Of a stretch of DNA of 64,000 nt, positions 5,560 through 30,182 are shown one piece after another. Location of the stretch: the NCBI RefSeq assembly GCF_001570585.1, contig NZ_BBXF01000003.1:593353-657352 (forward strand), read 5' to 3'. Below the pieces are notes generated by a model. The model was not told the DNA's origin, made no database searches, and worked only from the letters and a program-made list of their open reading frames with translations. The DNA is from Herbidospora daliensis. GTDB lineage: Bacteria > Actinomycetota > Actinomycetes > Streptosporangiales > Streptosporangiaceae. How positions within the stretch are numbered: position 1 is the stretch's first letter; the number at the start of each line of letters is the position of its first letter. The translations under genes and the position numbers were made by a program.

Positions 5560-7610
5560 ACGGTCACCCTGCGCAGGCGGGCCCGGGGGGCCTCCTCGCC
5601 GGGGAAGACGCGCTTGACGCCGTCGCCCAGGGCCTTCTCGATGATGCGGATGTCGCGGACGAGGTGCTCCAGGCCGCTCGGCTCCAGCGAGGCGGCGTGG
5701 TCGGAGCCCCACATCGTGCGGTCGAGCGTGATGTGGCGCTCGACCGTGACGGCGCCGAGGGTGACGGCCGCCAGCGAGATCTGCAGGCCGCGCTCGTGGC
5801 CCGAGTAGCCGACCGGGACGCCGTAGCGCTCGCGCAGGGTGATGATCGTGCGCAGGTTGGCCTCCTCGGGAGGCAGCGGGTAGGTCGAGGTGGCGTGCAT
5901 CATGACCAGGTTCTGGGTGCCCAGGATGTCGACGGCGGCGTCGATCTCCTCGAGGGTCGACATGCCGGTCGAGAGCAGGATCGGCTTGCGGGTCTCGGCC
6001 AGCGCGCGCAGCAGCTCGTGGTCGGTGATCGACGCCGAGGCGACCTTGTGGGTCAGCACGTTCATGTTCTCGAGGAACTCCACCGACGGGACGTCCCACG
6101 GCGAGGCGAACCAGTCGATGCCCTTCTCGGCGCAGTAGAGGGCGATCTGCTGGTATTCGTCCTTGCCGAACTCGGTCCGGATCTTGTACTCCATGTAGGT
6201 CATCTCGCCCCACGGAGTCTGCCGGATCTGCGAGCGCTGCTCCATGGGCACGCAGATCTCGGGGGTGCGCTTCTGGAACTTCACCGCGTCGCAACCGGCC
6301 TCGACGGCCACGTCGATGAGCTTCTTGGCGATCTCGACGTCGCCGTTGTGGTTGATGCCGATCTCGCCGATGACGTAGACCGGGTGGCCCGCGCCGAGCA
6401 GCTTCTCGCCGATGGCGACGGCCTTCGGCTCGACCGTGACGGCGCGCGGCCGCAGGATCGGGGCGGGGGTGTCGGCGGCCTTGGGACGGGCGGCGAGCAC
6501 CCGGTCGGCCAGCTCGCGGACGGCGCCGGCGCCGCCGCTCTGCGTCAGCACGACCCGGGCGGCCTTGCGCACCTCGGCGTGGGCCTCGGGGACGGTGATC
6601 GGCCAGCCGACCAGCGCCATGCAGCCGAGGTCGTTGACGTCGTTGCCGACGTAGGCGACCCGCTCGGGGTCGAGGCCCTCGATGGCCAGCCAGTCGGCCA
6701 GCGCGCTCCGCTTGGCCGACAGGCCCTGCAGCACCGGCACGCCGAGCTTGCGGGCGCGGGCGGCCACGACCGGGTTCTGCTCGGTCGACAGGACCAGCAC
6801 CTTGACGCCCGAGCGCAGCAGCAGCGAGACGCCCATGCCGTCGGCGCGCGAGACGGAGACCATCTCGCGGCCCTCGGAGTCGACGAACGCGCGGTCGTCG
6901 GTGTGCACGCCGTCGAAGTCGGTGACCACGGCGTCGACGTCGATCGGCAGCGGCGTGTCGACCACGTGGGCCAGCGCACGCACGATCTCGAGGTCTTCGG
7001 GGGTGTCGATCTCGTGGGCGGTCACGCTCCTGACCGGCTGCACGGCGACGGTGCCGAAGAAGCGGTGACCGGCCTCCAGGAAACCCTGGGCGCGCATGGC
7101 GTAGAAGGCGCCGGTCTCGCGGAAGTGGGGCTCGCGGTCCTGGCGGCGCGGGCGGGTCGCGGGGTCGTGGTTGACGCCCTCGCCGCCCTCCGTCCAGATG
7201 AACTCGTAGGTCTCCAGACCGGAGAACACGACGTCGGCCTCGCCCGACAGCACCTTCGCCACGGCGGCGTCGACGTCGGCCGGGTCGATGAACGCGCTGG
7301 TGCACTGGACGAGCAGGACGACCTCGGGGGTCTCGTCGAGCGACGACAGGGCGTGCAGGACGGCCGACTCGCTCGACGCGGTCGACCCCGCGATGTCGGC
7401 GGGACGGTCGACGACCTGGGCGCCGGCGGCCTCGGCGGCGGCGGCGATCCCGTGGTGGTCGGTGCTCACGACCACGGTGTCGACGGACCCGGCGCGGACG
7501 AGCGCGCTGACGGCCCGGGAGACCAGGGGGATTCCTCCGACCCGCTCCAGGTTCTTCAGCGGGACTCCCACCGAACCACCGCGGGCGGGGACAACGGCCA
7601 GGACTCGCAC
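5556..7610 (-). CDS. Trifunctional NeuA-HAD phosphatase-NeuB fusion
   Basis: 684 residues from the GTG at 7610, with GAGGAG eight nt upstream. Residues 1-218 are a CMP-acylneuraminate cytidylyltransferase (VLAVVPARGGS...PLKN, VQCTSAFI, HEIDTPEDLEI). Residues 226-375 are a KdsC-like HAD phosphatase with every motif present: DFDG (D231/D233), LST, the Lys in SAKRSA, and GNDVNDL. Residues 395-670 are a NeuB-type synthase (VIGEIGINHNGDV, AVKFQKRTPE, LLSTGMSTLEEI, YSGHERG). The C-terminal SAF domain usual in NeuB is absent. One polypeptide could thus condense PEP with a 6-carbon sugar, dephosphorylate the product and activate it with CTP. The phosphatase suggests a phosphorylated 9-carbon intermediate, as in Kdn synthesis. 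Two glycosyltransferases are coupled downstream. Confidence 0.9.
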   Translation of the reverse strand: MRVLAVVPARGGSVGVPLKNLERVGGIPLVSRAVSALVRAGSVDTVVVSTDHHGIAAAAEAAGAQVVDRPADIAGSTASSESAVLHALSSLDETPEVVLLVQCTSAFIDPADVDAAVAKVLSGEADVVFSGLETYEFIWTEGGEGVNHDPATRPRRQDREPHFRETGAFYAMRAQGFLEAGHRFFGTVAVQPVRSVTAHEIDTPEDLEIVRALAHVVDTPLPIDVDAVVTDFDGVHTDDRAFVDSEGREMVSVSRADGMGVSLLLRSGVKVLVLSTEQNPVVAARARKLGVPVLQGLSAKRSALADWLAIEGLDPERVAYVGNDVNDLGCMALVGWPITVPEAHAEVRKAARVVLTQSGGAGAVRELADRVLAARPKAADTPAPILRPRAVTVEPKAVAIGEKLLGAGHPVYVIGEIGINHNGDVEIAKKLIDVAVEAGCDAVKFQKRTPEICVPMEQRSQIRQTPWGEMTYMEYKIRTEFGKDEYQQIALYCAEKGIDWFASPWDVPSVEFLENMNVLTHKVASASITDHELLRALAETRKPILLSTGMSTLEEIDAAVDILGTQNLVMMHATSTYPLPPEEANLRTIITLRERYGVPVGYSGHERGLQISLAAVTLGAVTVERHITLDRTMWGSDHAASLEPSGLEHLVRDIRIIEKALGDGVKRVFPGEEAPRARLRRVTV

Positions 7611-9174: not shown

Positions 9175-9200
9175 TGATTTGCCGAAATTTCCGGAAATCA
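9175..9200 (-). terminator. Possible stem-loop at the end of the NRPS minus-strand operon
   Basis: TGATTT-g-CCG pairs with CGG-AAATCA around a 7-nt loop, with one bulged base. The stem includes the stop codon of the condensation-like gene. Read on the minus strand it is followed by a purine-rich stretch rather than a U-run, so termination efficiency is doubtful. Confidence 0.35.
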
Positions 9201-10670
9201 GCGGCCGGACCCCTCGGAGCCCGCCACGACATAGTGGCGAGGGGTGGTCGCCGCCATTCGGCCGGGGAGGAGGCGGAGGCATTCGGTGTGCAATTCCGCC
9301 GGGGTCAGCGGCGTTTCCACGCGGCAGACGAGATCTTTGTCGACCGACGCCGGAATGCCGCAGGCGTCCGTCGCCAGTCGGGTCACTTCCGGCAGTGAGA
9401 TCCATTGTCCGTCGCTGAACACCCAGGAATCGTCCCGCTCAACCGGGACGATTCCTGAAATTTCGGAAATGTCGCAGACATTTCCGTCCCCGGCCGCGAT
9501 CAATATCTTGGCGATTCCCTCGCCCAGCCTCAGTGTGTCCTGCCGGGGCAGCACACGCGGGTCGGACCACAGGGTCAGGTCGAGTTCGCCGTGCAGGCGG
9601 TTGACCCACAACGCCGTCCGGCACGGCAGCGTCGCCTCCGGCAGCCACACGGCCCGCACCTCGTCGCCGCTCGTCGCCGGACGCCCGGTGCGGCCGGCGC
9701 CGCTCATGTCGTTGAACACCAGGTCGCGGGCGAAGAACACGCCGCGGTCGCGCTGCACGCGCTCCATGACGGCGATCAGCGCGTCCGCGTCGAAGCGGCT
9801 GTTCTGGTACGCCCCCAGCGCCGCCCCCCGCACCCCCGCGAGCACCTCCTCGAAGGAGGCCGACACCGGCACCGGGACCAGCGCGTCCTGGGCCAGGGGG
9901 CCGACGTAGGAGCGCAGGTCGGGGCGGAACCGGTTGGCCGAGATCGATAAGACCGCCGTCAGCGGCAGGCCGCCCCGCAGGCCCGACAGCGCCGCGTACG
10001 CGGCCAGGACGGCGGCCGAGGCGCTCACCCCGGTCCGGGCGGAGATGCGGGCCAGCGCGCGGGCCGCGCCGGCCGAGCGCACCCGCAGGCGCGGCAGCCG
10101 CCACTCGTGCCCCGTGTCGTCGACCGACACGGTGAGCGTCGAGCGCGGCACCCGCGTCAGCGCGCCGTCCCAGTAGCGCAGCGCCGCCTCGGCCCGTTTG
10201 CGGCCCGCCGGGGAGGTCTCGGCGAGCGCGACGTCGACGGGCTGCGGGGCGGTGACGGGGTCGAGCGGCTTGCCGACGGCGATGTCGTCCCAGTCGGCCA
10301 GCAGCACGGCGAGCCCGGCCGCGTCGGCGGCGCTGTGGGTGGTCACCAGCGTCACCTGGTCGCCCGACACGCCCACCCGCAGCGGCAGCTCGTGCTCCAG
10401 GTCGAACCGGACCGTGTGGTCGGCCTCGGGGCCGAGCGCGATCTCGCCGGAGCCGTGCACCCGCTGCACGTCGCCGTGGAAGGTGGTCCGCAGCGACTCG
10501 TGCCGGGCCACGAGGCGGCGCACCGCCTCCTCGACCGCGACGCCGGCCGGGAGGGTGCGTACCACCCGGTAGTTCATGTGCTCGGGCGGGTCGGTGCGCA
10601 CGCAGCGCACCATGTTGGCCTGGCCCATCGTGAGCGGGCCCTCGCGGGCGGGCAGCCCGGAGAAGTTCAC
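9198..10670 (-). CDS. Stand-alone condensation-domain-like protein
   Basis: 490 residues from the GTG at 10670, overlapping the stop of the large synthetase by 4 nt. It has the two-lobed condensation fold in outline: an N-terminal MVRCVRTDPPEHMNYRVVRTLP, a core strand VTLVTTHSAADAAG, and a C-terminal YVGPLAQDALVPVPVSASFEEVL region. The catalytic HHxxxDG motif is degenerate: T111-H112-S-A-A-D116-A117. The second His and the Asp remain, but the first His and the Gly are lost. It may act as an interface or release partner, as a free C domain joining the chain to a soluble nucleophile, or be non-catalytic. The last roughly 110 residues are not recognisably condensation-like. Confidence 0.75.
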   Translation of the reverse strand: MNFSGLPAREGPLTMGQANMVRCVRTDPPEHMNYRVVRTLPAGVAVEEAVRRLVARHESLRTTFHGDVQRVHGSGEIALGPEADHTVRFDLEHELPLRVGVSGDQVTLVTTHSAADAAGLAVLLADWDDIAVGKPLDPVTAPQPVDVALAETSPAGRKRAEAALRYWDGALTRVPRSTLTVSVDDTGHEWRLPRLRVRSAGAARALARISARTGVSASAAVLAAYAALSGLRGGLPLTAVLSISANRFRPDLRSYVGPLAQDALVPVPVSASFEEVLAGVRGAALGAYQNSRFDADALIAVMERVQRDRGVFFARDLVFNDMSGAGRTGRPATSGDEVRAVWLPEATLPCRTALWVNRLHGELDLTLWSDPRVLPRQDTLRLGEGIAKILIAAGDGNVCDISEISGIVPVERDDSWVFSDGQWISLPEVTRLATDACGIPASVDKDLVCRVETPLTPAELHTECLRLLPGRMAATTPRHYVVAGSEGSGR

Positions 10671-13600
10671 TGGGGCCTCCCGTGGACGAGCGCGGCGGCC
10701 TCCTCGTCGGAGAGCTCGTCGAGCTCGGCGACGATCATCTCCTCCAGCACGGCGGCCAGCTGCTCCACGGTCGGGGCGTCGAAGATGACCCTGATCGGCA
10801 CCTCGATCCCGGTGATGGCCTTGATCCTCGCCAGCGCGCGGGCCGCCAGCAGCGAGTGGCCGCCGATGGCGAAGAAGTCGTCCAGCGCGCCGACCCCGGT
10901 GAGGCCGAGCACCGAGTCGTACACCTCCGCGACGAGCGCCTCGGCGTCGCCGCGCGGTTCGACGTGCCCGAGCGAGGCGCCCGCGTCGGGCGCCGGCAGC
11001 GCCCGCCGGTCGACCTTCCCGTGGGGGGTCAGCGGCAGCGCGTCGAGCCACATCCAGACCGAGGGGATCATGTACGACGGCAGCGCGTCGCCCGTCCATC
11101 CGGCCAGGTCGGTCCGGGTGCCGGTGACGTAGGCGACCAGGCGGTCGGCGTCGGCGACGACCACGGCCCCGGTGACCGCCGGATGCGCGGTCAGCCGCAG
11201 CTCGATCTCGGCCGGTTCGACCCGGTGGCCGCGCACCTTCACCTGGTCGTCGACGCGCCCGAGGAACTCCAGCCGCCCGTTGGCCAGGAACCGGGCCCGG
11301 TCGCCGGTCAGGTAGAGCCGCCCGTCGGGCGTGGGCCGGAACCGCTCGGCGGTCAGCGCGGGCCGGTTCAGGTAGCCGTCGGCCAGCCCGGGGCCGCCCA
11401 GGCAGAGCTCGCCCGGCATGCCCGGCGGCACCGGATGCCCGTGGGCGTCCAGCACCCGCGCCACCACGCCCCCGACGGGCCGCCCGATCGACGGGCGCTC
11501 CTCGCCGGTCACGTCGCCCGCGGTGGCGATGATGGTGCCCTCGGTCGGCCCGTAGGTGTTCACCAGGCGGATCGACTCGCCGAACCGGGCCCGCCACCGG
11601 GCCACGGCCGCGCCGCTCAGCTCCTCGCCGCCGAGGACGACCAGCCGCAGCCCCGGGGGCATCTCGACGTCGAGGGTGACCAACTCGTGGAAGTAGGCCG
11701 TCGGCAGGTCGAGCACCGTCACGTCGCGCCCGCGCGGCGAGGCCAGGAAGGCCGGCAGCGTCAGCGGCCCGCCGGGCAGCAGTTCGAGGGTGGCCCCGGC
11801 GGCCAGCGCCGGATAGATCTCCTCGGCGTGGGTGTCGAAGGAGTAGGCCGCGAACTGCACCACGTGGTCGCCCGGTGCGAGCCCGTACGCCTCCCGCATC
11901 CACGCCACCCGCGTGGCCAGCGCCCGGTGCCCGACCACGACGCCCTTGGGCGTGCCGGTGGAGCCCGAGGTGAACAGCACGTAGGCGGCGTCCTCGTGGC
12001 TTCCCCCGGCGGCCTCGGCGCGCAGGAACGCCTTGCGCGCCTCGGGCAGCGCCGGGTCGACGGGCAGGTACGCCGCCCCGGAGGCCCAGGCCCCCAGGAG
12101 CGCCCCGATGCCCTCGGGGGTGCGGTCGAGCCCGACCTCCCGGATCGTGCGCCCGTTCTCGTGCACGGCGATCGGCAGTTCCCCGTAGGCGACGACGCGC
12201 CCGTCGGTCCGGATGGCGGTCGCGCCGGGCCGTTCGGCGATCTGCCGGGCGATCATCGCGGGCACCCGCTCGGGTTCGGGCAGCGCGGGCCCGTGCCCGG
12301 CCTCCTCCAGGAAGGCGAGGTCGGCGTCGGTCAGCAGCGGCAGCTCCGAGAGCCGCCGGGCCGGGTCGGCGACCACGCCGAGCAGCAGCGTCTTCAGCCG
12401 GGCGGCCAGGCCCTCGGCGGTGGCGGCGTCGTAGAGCAGGGTGTCGTACTCCAGCTGGACGTGCAGGCCCTCGGGGTCCTGCCAGGCCTCCAGCAGCAGG
12501 TCGAACTTGGCCTGGGCGTGCCCGCTCGGCAGGTCGGTCACCGTCAGCCCGGCGAACGGGCGCGGCACCCGGCCGGTCTCGTGGGTGTGCAGGATCGCCA
12601 TCGTCTGGAAGACCGGCGTCCGGGTCAGGTCGCGCTCCAGCCGGAGCTCGGTGACCAGCTTCTCGAACGGGACGCCGCGGTGCTGGAAGGCGTCCAGGAC
12701 GGTGGCCCGGGTCGACCGCAGCAGGTCGGTGAAGAGCGGGTCGCCCGACAGGTCGCCGCGCAGCACCAGGATGTCGGTCAGGTAGCCGATCACCGATTCG
12801 AGCGCGACCGTGTCGCGCCCGGCGTTGGAGGTGCCGACGAGGATGTCGGTCCGCCCGGTGTGCCGGGACAGGGTGGTCTGGTAGGCGGCCAGCAGCGCCA
12901 TGAACAGCGTGACCCGGTTGTCGCGGGCCAGCGCGACCAGCCGCTCGGTCTCGGCGAGGCCGATGCGGAAGGAGACCGTCGCGCCCGGCCCGGCGTTGCC
13001 CGTGCGGGGCCGGTCGGGGTGCAGGTCGAGCGGGGTGGGGGCGGCCAGCTGCCGCCGCCAGTAGTCGACCGCCGGGCCGGCGTCGCGGGCCCGCTGCCAG
13101 ACCGCGACGTCGCCGAACTGCAGCGGCACCGGCGGCAGCTCGACGCCGGAGTAGGCGTCGGCGAGCTCGTCGAGCAGGATGTTCAGCGACACCCCGTCGC
13201 CGGTGATGTGGTGGGCCACCACGCAGAGCACGTGCGCGCCCGGCGCCTCGACCACGGTGACCCTGATCGCCGGTCCGGCGGTGAGGTCGAACGGGGTGTT
13301 GACCCGGTCGGCGACCGGCCGGGCGGGGTCGTCGGCGGTGATCCACTCGATGACCGGGGTGGTGTCGAGGATCGCGACGACGGGCTCGCCGTCGACCGCG
13401 GGGAAGCTGGTGCGGAGGATCTCGTGCCGGTTGGCGACCGTGGTCAGGGCGTCCTGGAGCCGGGCGCGGTCGAGGTCGCCGGCCAGGCGCCGGACCATCC
13501 ACATGTTGAACCCGGCGTCGGTGTCGGGGTGGAGCCGGTTGAGGAACCACAGGCGCTCCTGCCCGGCCGACAGCGGCGGCGTGGTGCCGGCCGGGCGCGG

Positions 13601-16579
13601 CCGGGGCACGTGGTCGACCGGCGGGCGGGCCGCGTCGACCTCGGCGGCCAGCCCGGCGACCGTCGGGTGCAGGAACACCGTGCTCACCGGCAGCCTGACC
13701 GGCAGGCGGGCGATCACCCGGGTGGCCAGCAGCGAGTGCCCGCCCAGGGCGAAGAAGTCGTCGTCGCCCCCCGGGAGCTCCGCGTTGAGCACGTCGGCGA
13801 ACACCTTGGCGACCAGCCGCTCGGTCCGGGTCTTCAGCATGCGGGCCGGCGCGGCGGTGGCCCCGGCCTTCGGCAGCGCCTTGCGGTCGACCTTCCCGTT
13901 GGGGGTCAGCGGCAGCGCGTCGAGCACCACGACCCGGCTCGGCACCATGTACGCCGGCAGCAGCCGCCGCGTCTCGTCGCGCACGCGGGCGGCGTCGCCG
14001 GTGACGAACGCGACGATGGTGTCGTCCTGGACGGCGCACACCGCCTGGCCGACCCCGTCGATCGCCTCCAGCACGGTCTCGATCTCGCCGAGCTCGATCC
14101 GGTGCCCGCGCAGCTTGACCTGGTTGTCGGTCCGGCCGAGGAACTCCAGGGTCCCGTCGCCGAGCATCCTGACCAGGTCGCCGGTCCGGTAGAACCCGTC
14201 GGCGGTGAACCGCTCGGCGGTCAGCTCGGGCCGGTCGTGGTAGCCCAGGGCGACGCCGAGCCCGCCGATGCGCAGCTCGCCGGGCACCCCGATGGGGGCC
14301 AGGTCGCCGTGGGGCGCGACGACCCGGACGACCGTGCCCGGAGTCGGGCGGCCGATGCTGATGGCCTCGGCGTCGCGCGGCACGTCCCAGGTGGTCGAGT
14401 AGATCGTGGTCTCGGTGGGGCCGTAGCCGTTGATCAGCCGCCGGGTGCGGGCGGTCAGCTCGCGGGCGAGCTTGGGCGGCAGGGGCTCCCCGGCGGTGAT
14501 CGCGGTGACCGGCGGCCAGTCGGCGGTGAGCAGCACCCGCCAGCCCGACGGCGTCGCCTGCACGTGGGTGACCCCGTGGTCGCGGATGAGGTCGGCGACC
14601 ACCTGGGCGTCGCGGGCGTCGTCGGCGAACACCAGCCGCCCGCCCGTGATCAGCGGCAGGAACAGCTCGACGGCCGAGATGTCGAACGCGGTGCTGGTGA
14701 GCGCCAGCCACACGTCGGCGGGCGTCGACCCGACGACGTCGCGCATGCCGAGCAGCAGGTTCGCCAGCGCCGGGTGCGGCACGACCACGCCCTTGGGCCG
14801 GCCGGTTGACCCGGAGGTGTAGAGAATGTAAGCGGGTGCGTCAGAGGAGGTCGGGGTGAAGTCGGCTTCGGGGACGGCGAGGTCCTCGTCGCGCAGCACG
14901 ACCTCCGCGCCTGAATCTTTCAGAATGTATTCAACCCGCGCCTGCGGGTAGGCCGGGTCGACCGGCAGGTAGGCCGCCCCCGCGAAGTGGGCCGCCAGCA
15001 TCGCGACGACGGTCTGCACGCCCCGCGAGGTCCTGATCGCGACCAGCCGCGCGGGCGGCAGCGAGGCCGCCACCGACGTCGCCCAGCGCAGCAGCTCGCC
15101 GTAGGTGACGTCGTCGACGGCCAGTGCGTCGGGGGTGCGCCCGGCCTGCTCGACGAACAGCGAGGTCCAATTGGCGACGTCGTACCCGGGCGCGCCCCGG
15201 CCCTGCTCGGTCAGCCAGGCCCGCTCGGCGGCGGGCAGCAGGTCGGCGGTGTCGAGCGGCCGGTCGGGCGCGTCGAGGAGGGCGGCCAGCAGGGTGGCGA
15301 AGCGGGCGCCCATGTTCCGGGCGGTGGCCTCGGTGAACAACTCGGCGGAGTAGATCAGCGAGCCGGTCATGGTGCCGTCGGGGTGCGGCCACAGGTCGAG
15401 CGAGAGGTCGCAGCGGGCGCCGGTGAAGCCGCTCGGGAACGCCTCGGCGTCGAGCCCGGGGAGCGGGCTCGACACCGTGTCGGCGGTGTAGCTGTGCAGG
15501 GCGAACATGGTCTGGAAGACCGGCGTGCGGCTCAGGTCGCGGGGAAGGCCGAGCTCGGCGATGACGCGCTCCAGCGGCACGTCGGCGTGGGACATGGCCT
15601 CGATCAGCGTCCGCCGGGTCGCCTTGACCGCCTCGGCGAACGTGCCGGCCGGGGCTAATCGGAGCGGCAGCGTGTTGGTCAGGTGGCCGATGACCTGCTC
15701 CAGGCCGACGTCGTCGCGGCGGGAGACCGGGGTGCCGACGCAGAAGTCGTCCTGGCCGGAGTGCCGCGCCAGGAACACCGCGAACGCGGTCAGGTAGAGC
15801 ATGAACGGCGTGGCCCGCATGGCGCGCGCCGTCTCGGCGGCCCGTACGGCGGTCGCGGCGTCGATCTCCACGATCACCTCGCCGCCCGCGCCGCCGCGCC
15901 GGGCCGGGCGCGGCAGGTCGGTCGGCAGGTCGAGCACCGGCACGTCGCGCAGCCGCTCGACCCACCAGCTCGTGTGCCCCGCCTCGGGCGCGTGGACCTG
16001 CGGTTTCAGTGGTGGGAGCGCTCCAGTTCCGCCGTACGCGTCGGCCAGCTCGCGGGCCAGCACCGCCACCGACAGGCCGTCGGCGATGATGTGGTGCAGC
16101 GCGACGGCCAGCACGTGGTCGTCGGGGGCCAGCTCGATCAGCACGACCCTGATCGGCGGTTGCGACAGGTCCATCGGCGTGTTCGCCAGGTCGCGCACCA
16201 TCTCCCGCGCCCGGCCGGGATCGGCCGCCGTGAGCCGGGTGATCGGCACCGGGCCCGGCGGCAGCACCTCGGCGGCCGCGGTGGGGAAGCGGGTGCGCAG
16301 GTTCTCCTGCCGGGCGGCCGCGGTCTCGAACGCCAGGGCCAGCCTCGGGACGTCGAGGGGGCCGCGCAACCGGTAGGCGTGGCAGGTCGTGTAGGACGGG
16401 TCTTCGGGGTCGAGCTGGTGCAGGAACCAGAGGCGTTCCTGCCCGGGGGAGAGGGCGCGAGCCAAAGGGGGAACCGCCAAACTAAAACTGGAAAGTTTGC
16501 TTACAGTTAGCGAGATCGCCGTCAGTGAACCACGCGGACGGAGGGGCCGACAAGACCTCCTCCCGGTCATTGTCCGCAC
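10667..16579 (-). CDS. Dimodular NRPS, C-A-PCP-C-A-PCP
   Basis: About 1,970 residues counted from the GTG at 16579. Order: C1 (LSPGQERLWFLHQL; HHIIADG near 158), A1 (about 469-900; YTSGSTGRPKG near 583), PCP1 (GGHSLL near 949), C2 (about 1000-1430; HHITGDG near 1121), A2 (about 1438-1865; FTSGSTGTPKG near 1538), PCP2 (GGHSLL near 1906). No epimerase or thioesterase is present. Pocket residues aligned by eye to GrsA are D-I-V-Q-I-A-G-I-Y (A1, unassigned) and D-T-E-D-V-G-T-I-I (A2; the acidic pair suggests a cationic amino acid). The start is uncertain: GTG 16579, ATG 16570 and a TTG at 16480 are in frame, none with a good ribosome site. It lacks release chemistry and probably hands its chain to the divergent synthetase. 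Confidence 0.92.
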   Translation of the reverse strand: MRTMTGRRSCRPLRPRGSLTAISLTVSKLSSFSLAVPPLARALSPGQERLWFLHQLDPEDPSYTTCHAYRLRGPLDVPRLALAFETAAARQENLRTRFPTAAAEVLPPGPVPITRLTAADPGRAREMVRDLANTPMDLSQPPIRVVLIELAPDDHVLAVALHHIIADGLSVAVLARELADAYGGTGALPPLKPQVHAPEAGHTSWWVERLRDVPVLDLPTDLPRPARRGGAGGEVIVEIDAATAVRAAETARAMRATPFMLYLTAFAVFLARHSGQDDFCVGTPVSRRDDVGLEQVIGHLTNTLPLRLAPAGTFAEAVKATRRTLIEAMSHADVPLERVIAELGLPRDLSRTPVFQTMFALHSYTADTVSSPLPGLDAEAFPSGFTGARCDLSLDLWPHPDGTMTGSLIYSAELFTEATARNMGARFATLLAALLDAPDRPLDTADLLPAAERAWLTEQGRGAPGYDVANWTSLFVEQAGRTPDALAVDDVTYGELLRWATSVAASLPPARLVAIRTSRGVQTVVAMLAAHFAGAAYLPVDPAYPQARVEYILKDSGAEVVLRDEDLAVPEADFTPTSSDAPAYILYTSGSTGRPKGVVVPHPALANLLLGMRDVVGSTPADVWLALTSTAFDISAVELFLPLITGGRLVFADDARDAQVVADLIRDHGVTHVQATPSGWRVLLTADWPPVTAITAGEPLPPKLARELTARTRRLINGYGPTETTIYSTTWDVPRDAEAISIGRPTPGTVVRVVAPHGDLAPIGVPGELRIGGLGVALGYHDRPELTAERFTADGFYRTGDLVRMLGDGTLEFLGRTDNQVKLRGHRIELGEIETVLEAIDGVGQAVCAVQDDTIVAFVTGDAARVRDETRRLLPAYMVPSRVVVLDALPLTPNGKVDRKALPKAGATAAPARMLKTRTERLVAKVFADVLNAELPGGDDDFFALGGHSLLATRVIARLPVRLPVSTVFLHPTVAGLAAEVDAARPPVDHVPRPRPAGTTPPLSAGQERLWFLNRLHPDTDAGFNMWMVRRLAGDLDRARLQDALTTVANRHEILRTSFPAVDGEPVVAILDTTPVIEWITADDPARPVADRVNTPFDLTAGPAIRVTVVEAPGAHVLCVVAHHITGDGVSLNILLDELADAYSGVELPPVPLQFGDVAVWQRARDAGPAVDYWRRQLAAPTPLDLHPDRPRTGNAGPGATVSFRIGLAETERLVALARDNRVTLFMALLAAYQTTLSRHTGRTDILVGTSNAGRDTVALESVIGYLTDILVLRGDLSGDPLFTDLLRSTRATVLDAFQHRGVPFEKLVTELRLERDLTRTPVFQTMAILHTHETGRVPRPFAGLTVTDLPSGHAQAKFDLLLEAWQDPEGLHVQLEYDTLLYDAATAEGLAARLKTLLLGVVADPARRLSELPLLTDADLAFLEEAGHGPALPEPERVPAMIARQIAERPGATAIRTDGRVVAYGELPIAVHENGRTIREVGLDRTPEGIGALLGAWASGAAYLPVDPALPEARKAFLRAEAAGGSHEDAAYVLFTSGSTGTPKGVVVGHRALATRVAWMREAYGLAPGDHVVQFAAYSFDTHAEEIYPALAAGATLELLPGGPLTLPAFLASPRGRDVTVLDLPTAYFHELVTLDVEMPPGLRLVVLGGEELSGAAVARWRARFGESIRLVNTYGPTEGTIIATAGDVTGEERPSIGRPVGGVVARVLDAHGHPVPPGMPGELCLGGPGLADGYLNRPALTAERFRPTPDGRLYLTGDRARFLANGRLEFLGRVDDQVKVRGHRVEPAEIELRLTAHPAVTGAVVVADADRLVAYVTGTRTDLAGWTGDALPSYMIPSVWMWLDALPLTPHGKVDRRALPAPDAGASLGHVEPRGDAEALVAEVYDSVLGLTGVGALDDFFAIGGHSLLAARALARIKAITGIEVPIRVIFDAPTVEQLAAVLEEMIVAELDELSDEEAAALVHGRPQ

Positions 16580-16635: not shown

Positions 16636-16650
16636 AAGGGAAATTGACAA
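16622..16650 (-). promoter_or_regulatory. Promoter of the dimodular NRPS gene
   Basis: On the minus strand TTGTCA (16650-16645), an exact 17-bp spacer and TAGTCT (16627-16622) form a good sigma-70-type promoter. It would start RNA near 16614, about 35 nt before the GTG at 16579. The -10 box sits inside the palindrome, implying repression. No equally good plus-strand promoter was found; TATTTA at 16626-16631 could serve as its -10. Confidence 0.5.
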
Positions 16651-16673
16651 ACCGTCGTCGGAAGAGACCTTGC

Positions 16674-19600
16674 GTGAGCACACTGTCGGCCGACAAGAAG
16701 GCCCTCCTCGCCCAGCGGTTACGGCGCAGGGAGGAGACCCGGGCGATACCCCCGCGCGACCCGGCCGCGCCTCTCGTGCTCTCGCCGGCCCAGGAACGGC
16801 TGTGGTTCCTGGAGCAGTACCGGCCGGGCACCACGACCTACACCGTCCCGCTGACGATCCGCCTCCAGGGCGAGCTCGACGACGCGGTGCTCGAATCGGC
16901 CTTCCACCAGGTCGCCGCCCGGCACGAGGTGTTCCGCGCCCGGTTCGCCGCCGACGACGAGGGCGTTCCGGTGGTGACCCTGCGGCCCGAGGCCGGGGCC
17001 GAGTTCCGGCTGGCCGAGGCGGCCACCGACGACGAGGCCCGGCAGATCGTCGAGGCCGCCCTGACACGCCCGTTCGACCTGGAGCACGGCCCGGTGCTGC
17101 GCGCCCTGGTGGTCCGGCTCGCGCCCGGCGACCGGATCCTGCTGCTGTCGGCCCACCACCTGGTCACCGACGGCTGGTCGCACGACATCGTGTTGTCGGA
17201 GCTGCTCGCGCTGGCCCGCGGCGAGGAGCCCAAGGCGCCCCCGGCGGTCGCCTACGCCGACTACGCCGTCTGGCAGCGCGACCGCGACCACACCCGCGAC
17301 ATCGCCCACTGGCGCGAGCGGCTGAGCGGCGTCCCGGTGCTCGACCTGCCCGCCGACCGGCCGCGTCCGCCCGAGATGGGCCACGCCGGGGCCGTGTACG
17401 AGGTCCCGCTCGACGTGACCATCGCCCGCGACGGCGCCGTGACCCCGTACATGGTGCTGATGGCGACCTTCCAGGTGCTGCTGGGCCGCTACTCGGGCCA
17501 GGACGACTTCGCCGTCGCCTCCCCGAGCGCCGGCCGGAGCGTGCCCGAGCTCGACGACGTCGTGGGCATGTTCGTCAACACCCTGGCCATGCGCGCCGAC
17601 CTGACCGGCGACCCGACCTTCACCGACCTGGTGGCCCGGGTCCGCGACCGCGCCCTCGACGCCTACGCCCACCAGGAGCTCCCGTTCGACCGGCTCGTCC
17701 AGGAACTGGAGGTCGAGCGCGACGTCTCCCGCTCGCCGATCGCCCAGGTGACGATGGCGCTGCAGAACTGGCGGCAGGGCCTCGACGGCCACGGCCTGAC
17801 CCTGACGCCGTTCCGCGTCGAGGCCGGGGTGAGCCGCTTCGACCTGTCGCTCTACCTGTACGAACGCCCCGGCGGCTACTGGGCCCAGTTCGCGTACAAC
17901 ACCGACCTGTTCGACCGCAGCACGGTCGAGCGCCTCGCGGAGCACTTCGCGGCGCTGCTGGCCCAGGTCGTCGCCGACCCCGGCCGGCCGATCTCCTCCT
18001 ACGCCCTCCCAGCCGGCGAGGCGCTCGCCTTCTCCGACGGCGGCCCCGTGGCGCGGGCGGGAACCCTGCTGCACGAGGTGGTCGACGGCCCGGCCGACCG
18101 GGTGGCCGTGCGCTGCGACGGCGTCGACCTGACCTACGGCGAGCTGGCGGACCGTTCCGACGCGCTGGCCGCCCGATTACGCGACCTCGGCGCCGGACGC
18201 GACGCCCGGATCGCCGTCTGCCTGGAGCAGTCGGCCGAGATCGCGGTCGCCATCCTCGGCGTGCTGAAGGCGGGCGCCGCCTATGTGCCGCTTGACCCGG
18301 CGCAACCCGACGACCGCCTCGCCTACCTCGTCGCCGACGCGGGCATCGAGATCGCCGTCACCCGGCGCGACCTGCCCGGCGTCGCCCACGCCGTCACCCC
18401 GGACGAACGCGGCTCGGCGGCGCTGCCCGAGGTCTCCGAGACCGACCTCGCGTACGTCATCTACACCTCCGGCACCACCGGCCGCCCCAAGGGCGTGGCC
18501 GTGCAGCACCGGCAGATCCTCACCTATCTCTCCGGCGTCCGCGACCGCCTGGACCCCAGGCCGCAGGGCTCCTACGCCCTCCTCCAGTCGCTCAGCTTCG
18601 ACTTCGGGATCACCGTCTTCTACCTGTCGCTGATGACCGGCGGCACGCTGACCCTGCTCAACCCGCGCCTCCCGGCCGAGGAGCTCGCCCGCACCATGGC
18701 GGAGAGCGACTACCTGAAGATCACCCCGTCGCACCTGGCGTCGCTGCTGCCGGAGGCCGACGTCCTGCCGAAGGAACTGCTGCTGCTCGGCGGCGAGGCC
18801 TCCCCGGCCGAGTGGGCCGCGGGCCTGCGGCGGCCCGGCCTGCGGGTGGTCAACCACTACGGGCCCACCGAGACGACGGTCGGGGTCACCACCCACGACG
18901 TCCGCGACGGGGAGGCGGGCCTGCTGCCGATCGGCCGCCCGCTGCCGGGCGCGCGCGTCTACGTGCTCGACCCGGCCGGGAACCCGTGCCCGGTCGGCGT
19001 GCCCGGCGAGGTCTGTCTCGGCGGCGACCGGCTGGCCCGCGGCTACCTGGGCCGGCCCGCGCTGACCGCCGAGAAGTTCGTGCCCGACCCGTTCGGCGAG
19101 CCGGGCGCCCGCATGTACCGCACCGGCGACCTCGGCCGCTGGTCGCCCTCCGGCGAGCTCCAGTTCCTCGGCCGCCGCGACCTCCAGGTGAAGGTCCGCG
19201 GCTACCGGGTCGAGCTCGCGGAGATCGAGATCGTCCTGGCCGACCGCGAGGGAGTCGGCCAGGCCGTCGTCGAGCTGCGCGACGACCGCCTCGTCGCCTA
19301 CCTGGTCGGCGAGCCGCGCGACCTGCGCGCCGAACTGGCCGACCTGCTGCCCGACTACATGATCCCGTCGCGGTACGTCTGGCTGGAGGCCCTGCCGCTC
19401 AAGTCGCACGGCAAGGTCGACCGCGCCGCCCTGCCCGACCCCGGCACCGACCGCCAGGCGGCGTCGGCGTACGTCCCCCCGGCGACCCCGCTCGAACAGG
19501 CCATCGCCGACGTCTGGGCCGCCGTGCTCAACGTCGACCAGGTCGGCGCCGAGGACGACTTCTTCGCCCTCGGGGGCCACTCCCTGCTGGCCGCCCAGGT

Positions 19601-21839
19601 CGTGGCCAAGCTCCGCCGCGTCACCGAACGCCCGGTGACGATCATGGACATCTTCCGGCACCGCACCGTCCGGGCCCTCGCCTCCCGCGGCGACGACGGC
19701 CCGCGCCGGTTCCTGCACCGCCTCACCCCGCCCCGGCGCACCACCACGAACCTGGTCTGCGTCCCGTACGGCGGCGGCAGCGCCGCGATCTACCAGCCCC
19801 TCGCCGACGCCCTGCCCGATCACGTCGCCCTCTACTCCGTCGCCGTGCCCGGCCAGGAGTGGGGCCTCGACGAGGAGGCGCGGCCGGTCCCCGAGGTCGC
19901 CGACGCCTGCGTCGCGGAGATCCTCGAACGGGTGCCCGGCCCGATCGCCCTCTACGGCCACTGCGGCCTGGGCGTCATGCTCGCCGTCGAGATCACCCGC
20001 CGCCTGGAGGCCGCCGGGCGCGAGGTCGAGGTGCTGCACCTCGGCGGCGTCTTCCCGTTCTCCCGCCCGGGTTCGCTCGCCGGGCGGATCCGCACCGCCG
20101 CGGAGAAGCTGCGATCGGACCGCATGTGGGCCAACGGCCTCATCGCGGCCGGTCTCGACGTCGAGGAGCTCGACGACGACCAGCTCAAGGCGATCATCAA
20201 GAACCGCCGCGAGGGCACCCGCGAGGCCGAGGCGTACTTCACCCGGCTCTGGTCGGAGTCGGGCGGCCCGGTCATCAACGCGCCGATCACCGCCGTCGTC
20301 GGCGAACGCGACCCGGCCACCGAGTTCTACCAGGAACGGTTCCGCGAGTGGCTGCGGCTGGCCCCGGCCAGCTCGTGCGTGGTCCTCGACGAGGCCGGCC
20401 ACTTCTTCCTCAAGCACCGCGCCGAGGAGCTCGCCGAGATCGTCACCACCCGCGAGAAGGTGCCCCGCACCCCCGAACGCACCTGGTGGACCCAGGCGAC
20501 CTCCGACGAGCCCGTCGCCGACGAGGGCCCGAAGCCGAGCATGAAACGCTTCGGCGCGGTCGCCGCCGGGCAGCTCGTCTCGATCGTCGGCTCGGCCCTG
20601 ACCGAGTTCGCCGTGCCGCTGTGGATCTACGTCACCACCGGCTCCCTGGTGAACTTCGCGCTGTTCTCGGTGATCGGCCTGCTCCCCGGCATGCTGGTCG
20701 CCCCGCTCGCGGGCGTGATCGTCGACCGGTACGACCGCCGCAAGGTCATGCTCGCCGGAGACGTCGGCGCCTGGTCGACCCAGCTCGCGCTCGGCGTCCT
20801 GTTGTGGACCGGCAACCTGCACATCTGGACGATCTTCCCGCTGCTGGCGATCCTGTCGGTCGCGCTGACCTTCCAGCGCCTCGCCTACGGCGCGTCGATC
20901 CCGCAGCTGGTGCCCAAACGGCTGCTCGGGCACGCCAACGGCGTCGTGCAGATGGTCACCGGGTCGGTCCAGCTGATCGTGCCGCTGATCGCCGCCGGCC
21001 TGATGGCCACGATCGGCCTGGAAGGCATCCTCGTCATCGACGTCGCCAGCTACACCTTCGCCATCGTCTCGGTGCTGCTGGTCAAGTTCCCCCGCGTGAT
21101 GGGGCTGCGCCGCCGCGAGACCATCTGGGCCGAGATGGTGGCCGGCTTCCGCTACACCTGGTTCAACCGCAGCTTCCGCGCCATGCTGCTGTTCTTCGCC
21201 GGCCTGAACGTCTTCCTGTCGCCGCTGTTCCTGCTGCTCAGCCCGCTCGTGCTGGCCTTCGGCGGCAACACGATCGACGACGTGGGCCGGGTGTCGTTCT
21301 TCGGCGGCATCGGGGTGCTGCTGGGCGGGCTCGCCATCGCCCTGTGGGGCGGCCCGCGCCGGCGCCGCATGCGCGGCATGCTGCTGGCCACCCTCGCGCT
21401 CGCGGTCTTCTGCGCCGTCACCGGCCTGCGGCAGGACCTCGCCGTGATCGCGGTCGGCGCGTTCGGCATGTCGCTCGCGCTGACCGTCGTCAACGGCATC
21501 TACGCCACGATCGTCCAGGTCAAGGTGCCGCAGCGGTTCCACGGCCGGGTCATCGCGCTGAACACCCTGATCGCCTGGTCGACCCTGCCGCTGGCCTTCG
21601 GGGTGGTCGCCCCGTTCGGCTCGGAGCTCATGGAGAGCCTCGTCGACGGCCCGAAGGGCGCCGGCATCGGGCTCCTGTACGTCGTCTTCGCCGCCGCCAT
21701 CGCCCTCATCGCCCTCGTGGCGCTGCGGGTGCCGAGGCTGGCCCGGTTCGACGCCGACGTGCCCGACGCCCCGCCGGACGACCTCATCGGTCTTCAGGCG
21801 GTGGCGGACCGGCGAGCGGCAACCGCATCACGAAGCTGA
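16674..21839 (+). CDS. NRPS C-A-PCP-TE fused to an MFS exporter
   Basis: 1,721 residues from the GTG at 16674, chosen for its GGAAGAG site. C (HHLVTDG near 161), A (about 463-930; YTSGTTGRPKG near 597), PCP (S970 in GGHSLL), TE (about 1023-1265), then an MFS transporter from about 1290 with 10-12 membrane helices and the loop motif DRYDRRKV. The A pocket reads D-F-T-K-L-G-H-V-G, very close to known Asp/Asn codes. The TE elbow is YGHCGLG: Cys1097 replaces the usual Ser, with Asp in GERDPA and His in EAGHFFL. Cys-type TEs are known, for example in beta-lactone release. Two TTA codons (16719, 18177) allow bldA-type control. Its 3' end overlaps the opposing kinase gene by 56 bp. Confidence 0.93.
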   Translation: MSTLSADKKALLAQRLRRREETRAIPPRDPAAPLVLSPAQERLWFLEQYRPGTTTYTVPLTIRLQGELDDAVLESAFHQVAARHEVFRARFAADDEGVPVVTLRPEAGAEFRLAEAATDDEARQIVEAALTRPFDLEHGPVLRALVVRLAPGDRILLLSAHHLVTDGWSHDIVLSELLALARGEEPKAPPAVAYADYAVWQRDRDHTRDIAHWRERLSGVPVLDLPADRPRPPEMGHAGAVYEVPLDVTIARDGAVTPYMVLMATFQVLLGRYSGQDDFAVASPSAGRSVPELDDVVGMFVNTLAMRADLTGDPTFTDLVARVRDRALDAYAHQELPFDRLVQELEVERDVSRSPIAQVTMALQNWRQGLDGHGLTLTPFRVEAGVSRFDLSLYLYERPGGYWAQFAYNTDLFDRSTVERLAEHFAALLAQVVADPGRPISSYALPAGEALAFSDGGPVARAGTLLHEVVDGPADRVAVRCDGVDLTYGELADRSDALAARLRDLGAGRDARIAVCLEQSAEIAVAILGVLKAGAAYVPLDPAQPDDRLAYLVADAGIEIAVTRRDLPGVAHAVTPDERGSAALPEVSETDLAYVIYTSGTTGRPKGVAVQHRQILTYLSGVRDRLDPRPQGSYALLQSLSFDFGITVFYLSLMTGGTLTLLNPRLPAEELARTMAESDYLKITPSHLASLLPEADVLPKELLLLGGEASPAEWAAGLRRPGLRVVNHYGPTETTVGVTTHDVRDGEAGLLPIGRPLPGARVYVLDPAGNPCPVGVPGEVCLGGDRLARGYLGRPALTAEKFVPDPFGEPGARMYRTGDLGRWSPSGELQFLGRRDLQVKVRGYRVELAEIEIVLADREGVGQAVVELRDDRLVAYLVGEPRDLRAELADLLPDYMIPSRYVWLEALPLKSHGKVDRAALPDPGTDRQAASAYVPPATPLEQAIADVWAAVLNVDQVGAEDDFFALGGHSLLAAQVVAKLRRVTERPVTIMDIFRHRTVRALASRGDDGPRRFLHRLTPPRRTTTNLVCVPYGGGSAAIYQPLADALPDHVALYSVAVPGQEWGLDEEARPVPEVADACVAEILERVPGPIALYGHCGLGVMLAVEITRRLEAAGREVEVLHLGGVFPFSRPGSLAGRIRTAAEKLRSDRMWANGLIAAGLDVEELDDDQLKAIIKNRREGTREAEAYFTRLWSESGGPVINAPITAVVGERDPATEFYQERFREWLRLAPASSCVVLDEAGHFFLKHRAEELAEIVTTREKVPRTPERTWWTQATSDEPVADEGPKPSMKRFGAVAAGQLVSIVGSALTEFAVPLWIYVTTGSLVNFALFSVIGLLPGMLVAPLAGVIVDRYDRRKVMLAGDVGAWSTQLALGVLLWTGNLHIWTIFPLLAILSVALTFQRLAYGASIPQLVPKRLLGHANGVVQMVTGSVQLIVPLIAAGLMATIGLEGILVIDVASYTFAIVSVLLVKFPRVMGLRRRETIWAEMVAGFRYTWFNRSFRAMLLFFAGLNVFLSPLFLLLSPLVLAFGGNTIDDVGRVSFFGGIGVLLGGLAIALWGGPRRRRMRGMLLATLALAVFCAVTGLRQDLAVIAVGAFGMSLALTVVNGIYATIVQVKVPQRFHGRVIALNTLIAWSTLPLAFGVVAPFGSELMESLVDGPKGAGIGLLYVVFAAAIALIALVALRVPRLARFDADVPDAPPDDLIGLQAVADRRAATASRS

Positions 21840-26787: not shown

Positions 26788-27402
26788 TCAACGGAGCCTG
26801 GCGGCCTCCGCGGCGAGTTTCTCGATGAGGGCGTAGTCTCCGGCGGCCAGCGCGTCGGCGGGCGTGAGCCACGTGCCGCCGACGCAGCCGACGTTGGGCA
26901 GCGCGAGGTAGTCGGGCGCGGTCGCCAGGCGGATGCCGCCGGTGGGGCAGAAGCGCACCTCGGGCAGCGGGCCGCCCAGGGCCTTCAGGTAGCCGACGCC
27001 GCCGGCCTGCTCGGCCGGGAAGAACTTCATCTCCCGCAGGCCGCGCTCGAACAGCGCCATGACCTCGGTCGCGGTCGCCACGCCCGGCAGGAACGGCACG
27101 CCCGAGGCGGTCATCTCGTCGATCAGGGCGGCGGGGGAGCCGGGGGAGACCAGGAAGCTCGACCCCGCCTCGACGGCGGCCGCGACGTCGGCGGGGCGGC
27201 GGACCGTGCCCGCGCCCACGACCGCTCCCTCGACCTCGGCGGCGATCCGGCGGATCGACTCCAGCCCGGCCTCGGTCCGCAGGGTGACCTCGATGACCGG
27301 CAGCCCGCCGGCCACCAGGGCGCGGGCCATCGGCACGGCGGTGTCGACGTCGTCGATCACGACGACGGGCACCACGGGGGCGAGGTCGAGGAGGGAACTC
27401 AT
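26788..27402 (-). CDS. eda: KDPG (2-keto-3-deoxy-6-phosphogluconate) aldolase
   Basis: 204 residues, usual size for the family. It is a class I aldolase splitting KDPG into pyruvate and glyceraldehyde 3-phosphate. The catalytic Glu lies in [14 protein letters not shown]. The Schiff-base Lys lies in [10 protein letters not shown], and the phosphate-binding loops are VGAGTV, VSPG and CPTGGI. The ATG at 27402 overlaps the stop of glk by 4 nt (ATGA), so it is the translationally coupled last gene of edd-glk-eda. Together these supply a complete Entner-Doudoroff branch from glucose and 6-phosphogluconate. A shorter, unconnected role in hydroxyglutarate metabolism is known for homologues. Confidence 0.94.
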
Positions 27403-28358
27403 ACGTACTCCACACTAGTGGCCCGCTGCTGGAGCCAGGCGGCCGCACCCGTCAGAGCGGGCTGCTCGGCGACGATCAGCGAGGTGGCGATGGCGGTCAG
27501 ATAGTCGGACAGGGCCGGACCGGTCAGTTCGAACCGGGACCGGAAGTCGCTGCCGCGGACGCGGTCGACGATCCGGGGCAGCACCCCGCCGCCGAGGTAG
27601 ACGCCGCCGCGCGCGCCCAGCGTGAGCGCGACGTTGCCGGCGAACCCGCCCAGCAGGGCGAGGAACACCTCGACGGTCTCGTGGCACAGGTCGTCGTCGC
27701 CCGCCACGATCTCCGAGGCGCTCTTGCGGGTGGTCTTGATGCCGCGGACCAGAGCGAGGCCCCGGTGCAGCCGGGGCAGGCCCGAGCCCGAGAGCAGGTG
27801 CTCGGCGTCGACGTAGGGCAGGCCGTCGGCGCGCAGCGCCTTGACGATCTCGAACTCCAGGTCGGTCACCGCCGGGACGGACACGTGCCCGCCCTCGCCC
27901 GGCACCGGCACCCAGCCGTCGCCGGCCGGCACCAGGCCGGCCACGCCCAGCCCCGTGCCGGGCCCGAGCACCGCCTTCACCATCCCGGCCGCCGGCGCCG
28001 GGCCGCCCAGCGCCACCAGGTCGTCGCCCGCCAGGTGGGGCAGCGAGATCGCCAGCGCCTCGAAGTCGTTCAGCACGTGCGACTGCGGGATGCCGAGGCC
28101 CGTCACCGAGCCCGACCACGAACCGTTGGTCAGTGTGTAGTGGTCACCCTTGACCGGCCCGGCGATCGCCACGCAGGCCGCGCCCGGCCGCACGCCGTCG
28201 GCGTGGTCGGCCAGATACGCGGATATCGCGTCGGGCAACGTCGGGTGTTCCGCCACGTTGAGGACGGCCACCGCCTCGGGCACCGCGCCCGGCCCGGAGA
28301 CGATTCCAAAACGTGCATTGGTGCCGCCGATGTCGGCGACGAGCCAGGGGTAGCTCAC
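27399..28358 (-). CDS. glk: Glucokinase
   Basis: 319 residues from the GTG at 28358. ATP-dependent phosphorylation of glucose to glucose 6-phosphate in the cytoplasm. It is of the proteobacterial Glk type (PF02685) rather than the ROK type common in actinobacteria. Motifs: [13 protein letters not shown] (phosphate loop), [15 protein letters not shown] with the catalytic Asp, [13 protein letters not shown], and GEGGHVSVP. It starts directly after the edd stop (no gap) and overlaps eda by 4 nt, so the three genes form one unit. It supplies the pathway entry reaction, while glucose-6-phosphate dehydrogenase and lactonase must be elsewhere. Confidence 0.92.
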
Positions 28359-30182
28359 TTAGAACCCTCCGAAGATGCTGGCACCGCGTTCCGCGGGTCC
28401 AACCGTACGACGGAAGGCGGCAAAAAGCTCGCGTCCGGTTCCCACCCATTTGTCATCAGGTTTCGCGGCGCCGTCGGGGGTCCGGGCGCTCAGGTCGGCC
28501 AGCACGTCGAGCGTCCCGGCGGTCGAGTCGAGCCTGATCGGGTCGCCGTCCCTGATCAGCGCGATCGCGCCGCCGTCGGCCGCCTCGGGCGACAGGTGGA
28601 TCGCGGCGGGCACCTTGCCCGACGCGCCCGACATACGGCCGTCTGTAACGATTGCGACCTTCTGTCCTCGGTCGAGCAGCACGGCCAGCGGCGGGGTCAG
28701 CTTGTGCAGCTCCGGCATGCCGTTGGCGCTCGGCCCCTGGTAGCGCACGACCGCGACGAAGTCCTGTCCGTCGAGCTCACCGGCCTCGAACGCGCGCAGC
28801 AGGTCGAGCTGGTCGTCGAACACCTTCGCCGGCGCCTCGATCACCAGGTGCTCGGGCTTGACCGCCGACACCTTCGACACCGCCCGGCCCAGGTTGCCGC
28901 CGACCATGTGGATGCCGCCGTCGGGCGAGAAAGGTTCATCGGCGGGGCGCAGCACCGACAGGTCGCCGCTGCCTTCGGCGCGCTCGGTCCAGACGAGCTC
29001 TCCCTCCTTCAGCTCCGGCGCCGACCGGTAGAGGCCGAGCCCCCGCCCGGCCACCGTCAGCACGTCGTCGTGCAGCAGCCCGGCGTCCAGCAGCGTGCCG
29101 ATGAACACCTGCATGCCGCCTGCGGCGTGGAAGTGGTTCACGTCGGCTTCGCCGTTGGGGTACATCCGGGTCAGCAGCGGCACGACCTTCGACAACGCCG
29201 CCATGTCGTCCCAGGTCAGCGTGATGCCGGCGGCGTTAGCCATGGCGACCAGGTGCATGGTGTGGTTGGTCGAGCCGCCCGAGGCCAGCAGCGCGACGAC
29301 GGCGTTCACGATCGCCTTCTCGTCGACGACGTGGCCGATCGGGGTGTACTCGTCGCCGTGCGCGGTCAGCTCCACCACACGCTTGGCGGCTGCGGCCGTC
29401 AGCGCGTGGCGCAGCTCGGTGCGCGGGTTGACGAAGGTCGAGCCCGGCAGGTGCAGGCCCATGACCTCCATCAGCAGCTGGTTGGAGTTGGCGGTGCCGT
29501 AGAAGGTGCAGGTGCCGGGGGAGTGGTAGCTGTCGGCCTCGGCGTCGAGCATCTCCGCGCGGCCGATCTTGCCCTCGGCGAACTTCTGCCGGGCCCGCGC
29601 CTTCACCTTGTTCGGCAGCCCCGACGTCATCGGCCCGGCCGGCACGAACATCGCCGGCAGGTGCCCGAACCGCAGCGCCCCGATGAACAGCCCCGGCACG
29701 ATCTTGTCGCAGACCCCGAGCAGCAGCGAGGCGTCGAACATGTCGTGCGAGAGCGCGATGGCCGTCGACATGGCGATGACGTCGCGGCTGTAGAGGGACA
29801 ACTCCATGCCCGCGCGGCCCTGGGTGACCCCGTCGCACATGGCCGGCACCCCGCCGGCCACCTGCGCGACACCCCCGGCCGCCCGGACCGCCTTCTTGAG
29901 TTCCGGCGGGTAGCTCTCGTACGGCTGGTGCGCCGAGAGCATGTCGTTGTACGACGTCACGATCGCCACGCCCGGCCGGGTGGACGCCCGCAGCAGCGGC
30001 TTGTCGTCACCGGCGGCGGCGAACCCGTGCGCCAGGTTGGCGCAGCCCAGATGGCCCCGTGCGGGCCCCCGTCGACGCAGCTCGGCCGCGTCGGCGTCCA
30101 CACGGGACAGGTAGGCGGTGCGGGACTCCCGGCTGCGATCGGCGATGCGTTGGGTGACCTCGGCCACGGCCGGGTGTGTCAT
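28359..30182 (-). CDS. edd: 6-phosphogluconate dehydratase
   Basis: 607 residues, normal length. An iron-sulphur dehydratase of the IlvD/Edd family making KDPG from 6-phosphogluconate. Recognisable: [27 protein letters not shown] (cluster Cys), [11 protein letters not shown] (cluster Cys), [15 protein letters not shown] (cluster Cys), and [17 protein letters not shown] near the C-terminus. [14 protein letters not shown] is diagnostic for Edd over IlvD. First gene of the edd-glk-eda operon, preceded by GAGGAGGGG six nt before the ATG at 30182. It diverges from a ROK regulator that probably controls it through the shared 112-bp promoter. Confidence 0.95.

Follow-up and report, generated by a model that had tools for sequence, protein, structure and literature searches.

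A cysteine-type thioesterase fused to a transporter domain in a nonribosomal peptide synthetase family of Herbidospora daliensis and its relatives

A nonribosomal peptide synthetase (NRPS) of Herbidospora daliensis ends in a cysteine-type thioesterase (TE) of the ObiF/SulM kind that runs on, within the same chain, into a transporter domain of the major facilitator superfamily (MFS). It is encoded in the 64,000-nucleotide stretch of DNA analysed here (hereafter the window), which belongs to an 8.5 Mb genome assembled in 18 contigs. The TE is of a known type; the fusion in which it occurs is widespread and appears to be new. Our preferred reading, to which we give a probability of roughly 55%, is that the peptide is released from a Cys thioester, more likely by internal capture, and is then exported by the same membrane-anchored terminal NRPS module. 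The features on which the following account draws are, with positions counted in the window:

16644..21839, forward strand: NRPS with the domain order C-A-T-TE-MFS in one frame (Pfam), 1731 aa from TTG 16644 or 1721 aa from GTG 16674, the start chosen by the gene caller; Pfam residue ranges in this ORF are Condensation 45-456, AMP-binding 479-802, PP-binding 952-1014, Thioesterase 1036-1268 and MFS_1 1307-1646
18078..19415, forward strand: adenylation (A) domain with the Asp-like code DFTKLGHVGK (Pfam, code alignment)
19749..20447, forward strand: Cys-type thioesterase domain with YGHC, Asp at position II and His (PF00975, model, alignment, tree)
20562..21581, forward strand: MFS domain (MFS_1/MFS_3) with a predicted MFS transporter fold (Pfam, structure prediction)
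10667..16579, reverse strand: divergent partner NRPS, C-A-T-C-A-T without a TE (Pfam)
9198..10670, reverse strand: 490-aa condensation-like protein with a 4-base overlap with the end of the partner NRPS (PF00668, motif check)

The TE domain scores 77 bits against PF00975 (cut-off 26.4) and has the nucleophile elbow YGHCGLG, an Asp in VVGERDP and a His in DEAGHF. A preliminary description of this DNA had pointed to a Cys in place of the catalytic Ser in GHCGLG, with its Asp and His partners retained, and this is what we see; the residue is Cys1107 counted from TTG 16644, and the Cys1097 given there follows the numbering from GTG 16674. In an alignment of 87 TEs (85 TE-MFS rows and two from proteobacterial proteins without MFS), the columns C81, D197 and H227 are invariant, and since the relatives were fetched with patterns that leave out the elbow, the constancy of the Cys cannot be put down to how they were collected. 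The usual Asp site (position I, column 109) is occupied by Gly in 84 and Ala in three TEs, and the Asp lies instead at position II (D197, 87/87). Arg115 is kept in 82 of the 87 TEs and replaced by Lys in two. Almost all family TEs (86/87) share a spacing of +13 from this Asp to a Trp and of +30 to the His (29 in one), as do ObiF1, SulTE and three plasmid-borne TEs described below, whereas Ser TEs of the type II kind have Trp at +11 and His at +28 (9/9, with +13/+30 in 0/9), in a comparison for which the Asp of the reference rows was picked by hand and the spacing criterion was drawn from these same rows. One of these nine, L002, is a Ser TE of the same H. daliensis genome. Another TE with a Cys elbow in this genome (L007, C5:709912; GFCMGS) is of a different type and is known from a fragment.

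The same gene is present in all six other genomes of the genus listed in the family sample, with TE identities of 92-99%. In five between-species comparisons, dN/dS was 0.04-0.20 for the TE, 0.24-0.26 for the MFS domain and 0.18-0.26 for C-A-T, and both TE and MFS domain are thus under purifying selection. A mis-call, a frameshift or a chance Ser-to-Cys change is ruled out by the same-genus copies, the Cys in all 87 TEs and the dN/dS values.

The continuation of the TE chain into an exporter, also proposed in the preliminary description, is borne out across the whole family. In the window protein, the MFS_1 match (66 bits) lies in the same ORF as the TE; the domain also matches PF05977 (MFS_3) and, below the curated cut-offs, NCBIfam TIGR00900 and Mef(B), and its predicted structure matches the folds of SPNS2, MdfA and NorA. 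We read 84 actinobacterial ORFs, namely the best 80 relatives plus the window gene, L009, L010 and L011; one stops at a contig edge, and all 83 with a complete 3' end encode 611-912 residues past the elbow. Thioesterase, MFS_1 and MFS_3 were all found by Pfam in 41/41 scanned TE-MFS members (43 rows first chosen, minus two plasmid rows). The MFS fusion is therefore a family trait.

Among all solved structures, the best match of the window TE is ObiF1, both in sequence and in fold. A phmmer search gave E-values of 2.1e-26 for ObiF1, 6.9e-19 for the type II TE BorB, 9e-14 for RifR and 2.2e-10 for the SulM TE. With a profile built from eight family TEs, ObiF1 scored 127.7 bits, BorB 91.9, RifR 66 and SulM 62.5, i.e. 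by sequence profile SulM ranks under BorB and RifR, not second. A Foldseek search with the TE model (pLDDT 78.6) placed ObiF1 first (TM 0.80) and SulM second (0.75), followed by RedJ, RifR and BorB. The layout of the triad agrees as well: ObiF1 has a Gly at the usual Asp position, as stated in the available part of its description (PMC6668435), and among the NRPS TEs compared in the accessible portion of the SulM paper, only ObiF1 and SulTE have an Asp after strand 7 (PMC11298585). By homology, the window TE is thus an ObiF/SulM-type cysteine TE, and the comparison with obafluorin biosynthesis drawn in the preliminary description holds at this level.

A tree of 26 Cys TEs and nine Ser TEs of the type II kind split the two groups with support of 100/100; it is unrooted, comprises 35 rows including 19 of the 85 TE-MFS rows, and was built without a Ser type I TE, RedJ or the L007 fragment. 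SulTE forms a long branch, and the branching order inside the Cys group has no firm support. A grouping of the 19 TE-MFS rows with L130 (see below) did not appear in the tree, nor could it be rejected (p-AU 0.444). The preliminary description had taken a grouping with type II editing enzymes as an outcome that would speak against its reading. The window TE stands apart from the Ser type II TEs, but such a grouping would discriminate poorly, because ObiF1 and SulTE themselves are placed among type II TEs in the tree of the SulM paper, as far as its available part goes (PMC11298585).

In a reverse search of plasmid records with the ObiF1 TE, nine records with TEs of the Cys kind matched with E-values of 3e-33 to 7e-13; for Embleya NBC_00896 and for two S. 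clavuligerus records out of three, the Cys kind is an expectation. The other nine records, which for the most part carry the annotation alpha/beta hydrolase or thioesterase, matched at 7e-9 or weaker. The closest of the plasmid hits, L130 (Embleya, NZ_CP108785.1), is an NRPS Cys TE with 39.8% identity to ObiF1; its protein has the A code DLTKIAHVSK and continues for 643 residues past the elbow, ending like the TE-MFS family. Two further NRPS Cys TEs, L131 (Streptomyces sp. NBC_01351 plasmid) and L132 (Vibrio tasmaniensis plasmid), fall on the SulTE branch (support 86/80). Both of these NRPSs end shortly past the TE; an MMPL transporter gene lies two genes further in L131, and AzlC/AzlD genes follow in L132, whose A code was read by eye as Ser-like.

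Members of the family are numerous among the relatives of H. daliensis. Its own genome encodes five TE-MFS proteins; when the MFS domain was used by itself as the query, the same five stood far above the next match (36%, a 692-aa frame). A scan of named genomes yielded 484 relatives among 575 candidate stretches, of which the best 80 were retained; their genera are ones we take to belong to Streptosporangiaceae and Streptomycetaceae. In the family sample, the TE matched in 157 of 297 genomes at 1e-15 and in 121 of 297 at 1e-40 (hand count). In the order sample, the TE-MFS query matched in 119 of 297 genomes at 1e-60, with three candidates scored per genome and a match meaning similarity to the query rather than a Cys elbow; among the matches listed, more than 100 extend over both domains and a few are confined to the MFS part, and several are interrupted by a single stop codon. 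In the phylum sample, this genome was the only one of 396 to match at 1e-40 (seven candidates scored per genome). Judged by these similarity searches, the TE-MFS family occurs mainly in this order and sporadically in Streptomycetaceae. One of the own-genome paralogues, L011 (also L127; G000:C3:567557-568282), lies about 45 kb upstream of the window TE and is a second Cys-TE-MFS NRPS with a TE identity of 48% and the A code DLPKVAEVGK; its neighbours encode PDH-like E1/E2, two glycosyltransferases, a PP-binding protein and a TauD dioxygenase.

The gene neighbourhoods vary. The 43 called genes of the window, some with slightly different start positions, were all scanned with Pfam, and two small genes gave no match. 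The pairing of the terminal NRPS with its divergent partner is kept in five Herbidospora loci (L045-L049). The second A domain of the partner has the code DTEDVGTIIK, which we take to select a basic residue. The 490-aa protein next to it matches PF00668 with 26.1 bits, under the cut-off of 30.6, and a motif check found no HHxxxDG motif in it. The genome has five MbtH matches, all of them, by coordinates, away from the five TE-MFS genes. Genes for PDH-like E1 alpha, E1 beta and E2 were found near TE-MFS genes in 38, 39 and 37 of the 87 fetched stretches, respectively; they are absent next to the window gene and present next to L011. In these 37-39 stretches (L058, L070 and others), the PDH-like genes are often accompanied by standalone A, C and carrier proteins. 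Such E1/E2 genes may provide for the synthesis of an acyl starter. Judging from the PDH-like and TauD genes found beside some of its members, the TE-MFS module appears to work in more than one kind of assembly line. Elsewhere in the window, genes for a sialic-acid-like sugar pathway lie at 3341-7610 (reverse strand). One of them has a polysialyltransferase-like domain (PF07388), another encodes a family 2 glycosyltransferase, and one ORF combines a cytidylyltransferase, a KdsC-like phosphatase (NCBIfam, under cut-off) and a NeuB domain. At 26788-30182 (reverse strand), genes for a KDPG aldolase, a glucokinase and a member of the dihydroxy-acid/phosphogluconate dehydratase family lie in a row, resembling an Entner-Doudoroff set.

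The A domain code DFTK[ILV]GH[VI]GK is found in 81 of 86 aligned ORFs; the exceptions are L009, L124, one own-genome paralogue and two proteobacterial NRPSs without MFS. The codes of L009 (Embleya) and L124 (Nonomuraea corallina) are presumably Ser-like, and that of the Cys-TE NRPS without MFS in Caballeronia is presumably Thr-like. The window code matches DLTKVGHVGK at eight of ten positions. In the available part of the tistrellabactin paper, a module with the latter code activates L-Asp, which a separate hydroxylase converts to beta-OH-Asp (PMC10391617), and a survey, likewise seen as an excerpt, describes the code as common to Asp and Asn domains, with most such codes favouring Asp (PMC12283262). 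The terminal A domain is therefore most likely Asp-selective. An apparent special kinship with the A domains of linear gramicidin synthase proved to be an artefact of summing two A domains, each of which alone scores 261-281 bits. An Asp-like code implies that the chain end would be without the beta-OH or beta-NH2 nucleophile used by ObiF1 and SulM unless one is added, and Pfam identified no TauD, Asp/Arg hydroxylase or other evident oxygenase among the 43 window genes. A strained or reactive product, as suggested in the preliminary description, would fit the homology of the TE to ring-forming enzymes, while the Asp-like A domain and the lack of a beta-hydroxylase among the Pfam matches of the window speak against it.

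While the domain anatomy, its conservation and the kinship with ObiF1 and SulM are established by the data, the product, its cyclisation and a coupling of release with export are inferred. Asp would be loaded by the A domain, as its code suggests, and joined by the C domain to a chain supplied by the divergent two-module partner, as the position of the genes suggests. Given the homology and the intact triad, the peptide would then be transferred as a thioester to Cys1107, and its release would more likely involve internal capture, as in both solved relatives, than simple hydrolysis. The fused MFS domain may export the product. The N-terminus of MFS transporters lies on the cytosolic side, and an MFS domain in this orientation would tether the whole synthetase to the membrane. 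Cyclisation is favoured because both characterised relatives cyclise and because a Cys-to-Ser exchange in SulTE led to rapid hydrolysis of the monobactam, as reported in the available part of the SulM paper (PMC11298585). It could be reconciled with Asp loading by a cyclic anhydride formed via the Asp side chain or by beta-hydroxylation in trans; no gene supporting either route was found within the window.

Another possibility, although an unlikely one, is that the enzyme is a hydrolase with an inherited Cys, yielding an ordinary linear peptide that ends in Asp and is exported by the fused MFS domain. The prevalence of the Asp-like code and the absence of a beta-nucleophile enzyme from the Pfam matches of the window would fit this, as would Arg115, which could hold the Asp carboxylate. 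However, both characterised members of the clade cyclise, and the hydrolysis seen with Ser in SulTE suggests that Cys, kept in every family TE, serves to avoid this outcome. More doubtful is a stronger form of coupling, in which the Cys TE would form an acyl product too reactive or strained for the cytosol, perhaps an Asp-derived beta-lactone or cyclic anhydride, and hand it to the transporter so that release and export become one step. We consider it improbable that the TE is a true beta-lactone or beta-lactam former that closes a four-membered ring after beta-hydroxylation of Asp in trans. The codes taken as Ser-like and Thr-like would carry a hydroxyl directly, a TauD dioxygenase gene adjoins the TE-MFS genes in L011 and L122, and the tistrellabactin Asp module sets a precedent for a separate hydroxylase (PMC10391617, available part), but the window genes include no hydroxylase in the Pfam scan and the TauD cluster, obtained by clustering, occurs in 2/87 stretches. 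A type II-like editing TE clearing misloaded T domains is hardly credible and was rejected on fusion, tree and loop signature, since the domain is fused in cis at the release position, carries Cys rather than Ser, is split 100/100 from the nine Ser TEs and has a different Asp loop, even though an Asp at position II occurs in type II TEs as well and ObiF1 and SulTE group with type II TEs in the excerpted SulM tree (PMC11298585).

Among the matches listed in the open-access literature, we found no description of a bacterial TE-MFS or NRPS-MFS fusion, although a report in a subscription journal is possible, and no known product of the TE-MFS family turned up in the literature searched. The family offers more than 100 sequences for asking what the Cys and the displaced Asp do, and its peptides, as yet uncharacterised, may include electrophilic ones. 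Should release be coupled to export, the product would have no need to pass through the cytosol, which would be unusual for an NRPS.

Compared with characterised systems, the window TE is most similar to that of ObiF1, with which it shares the Cys in YGHC, Gly at position I, Asp at position II and the +13/+30 spacing. In contrast, ObiF1 has a C-terminal MbtH-like domain and not an MFS domain, according to the available part of its description (PMC6668435), its substrate carries a beta-OH, and its elbow GHCAG is one residue shorter than the GHCGLG of the window TE, which has Gly after the Cys. The SulM TE shares the Cys, the Asp at position II and the Asp-Trp and Asp-His spacing and is the second-best fold match. 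Like ObiF1, it closes a four-membered ring, but its motif is QCN and its substrate is Dap, with sulfonation (PMC11298585, available part), whereas the window TE has His-Cys-Gly in place of the Gln-Cys-Asn of beta-lactam TEs, the window A domain has an Asp-like code, and no sulfotransferase family appeared among the Pfam matches of the 43 window genes. The type II TEs RifR, BorB and RedJ share the alpha/beta hydrolase fold, and RifR and RedJ also have their Asp at position II, again according to the available part of the SulM paper (PMC11298585). They are standalone proteins with a Ser nucleophile, whereas the window TE is fused in cis and has a Cys, and RifR, BorB and the seven other Ser TEs, with their +11/+28 spacing, form a clade separate from it. 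Finally, the MFS domain of the window protein resembles MFS_3 and Mef(B)-like exporters, the Mef(B) match lying below its cut-off, and differs from them in being the C-terminal domain of an NRPS.
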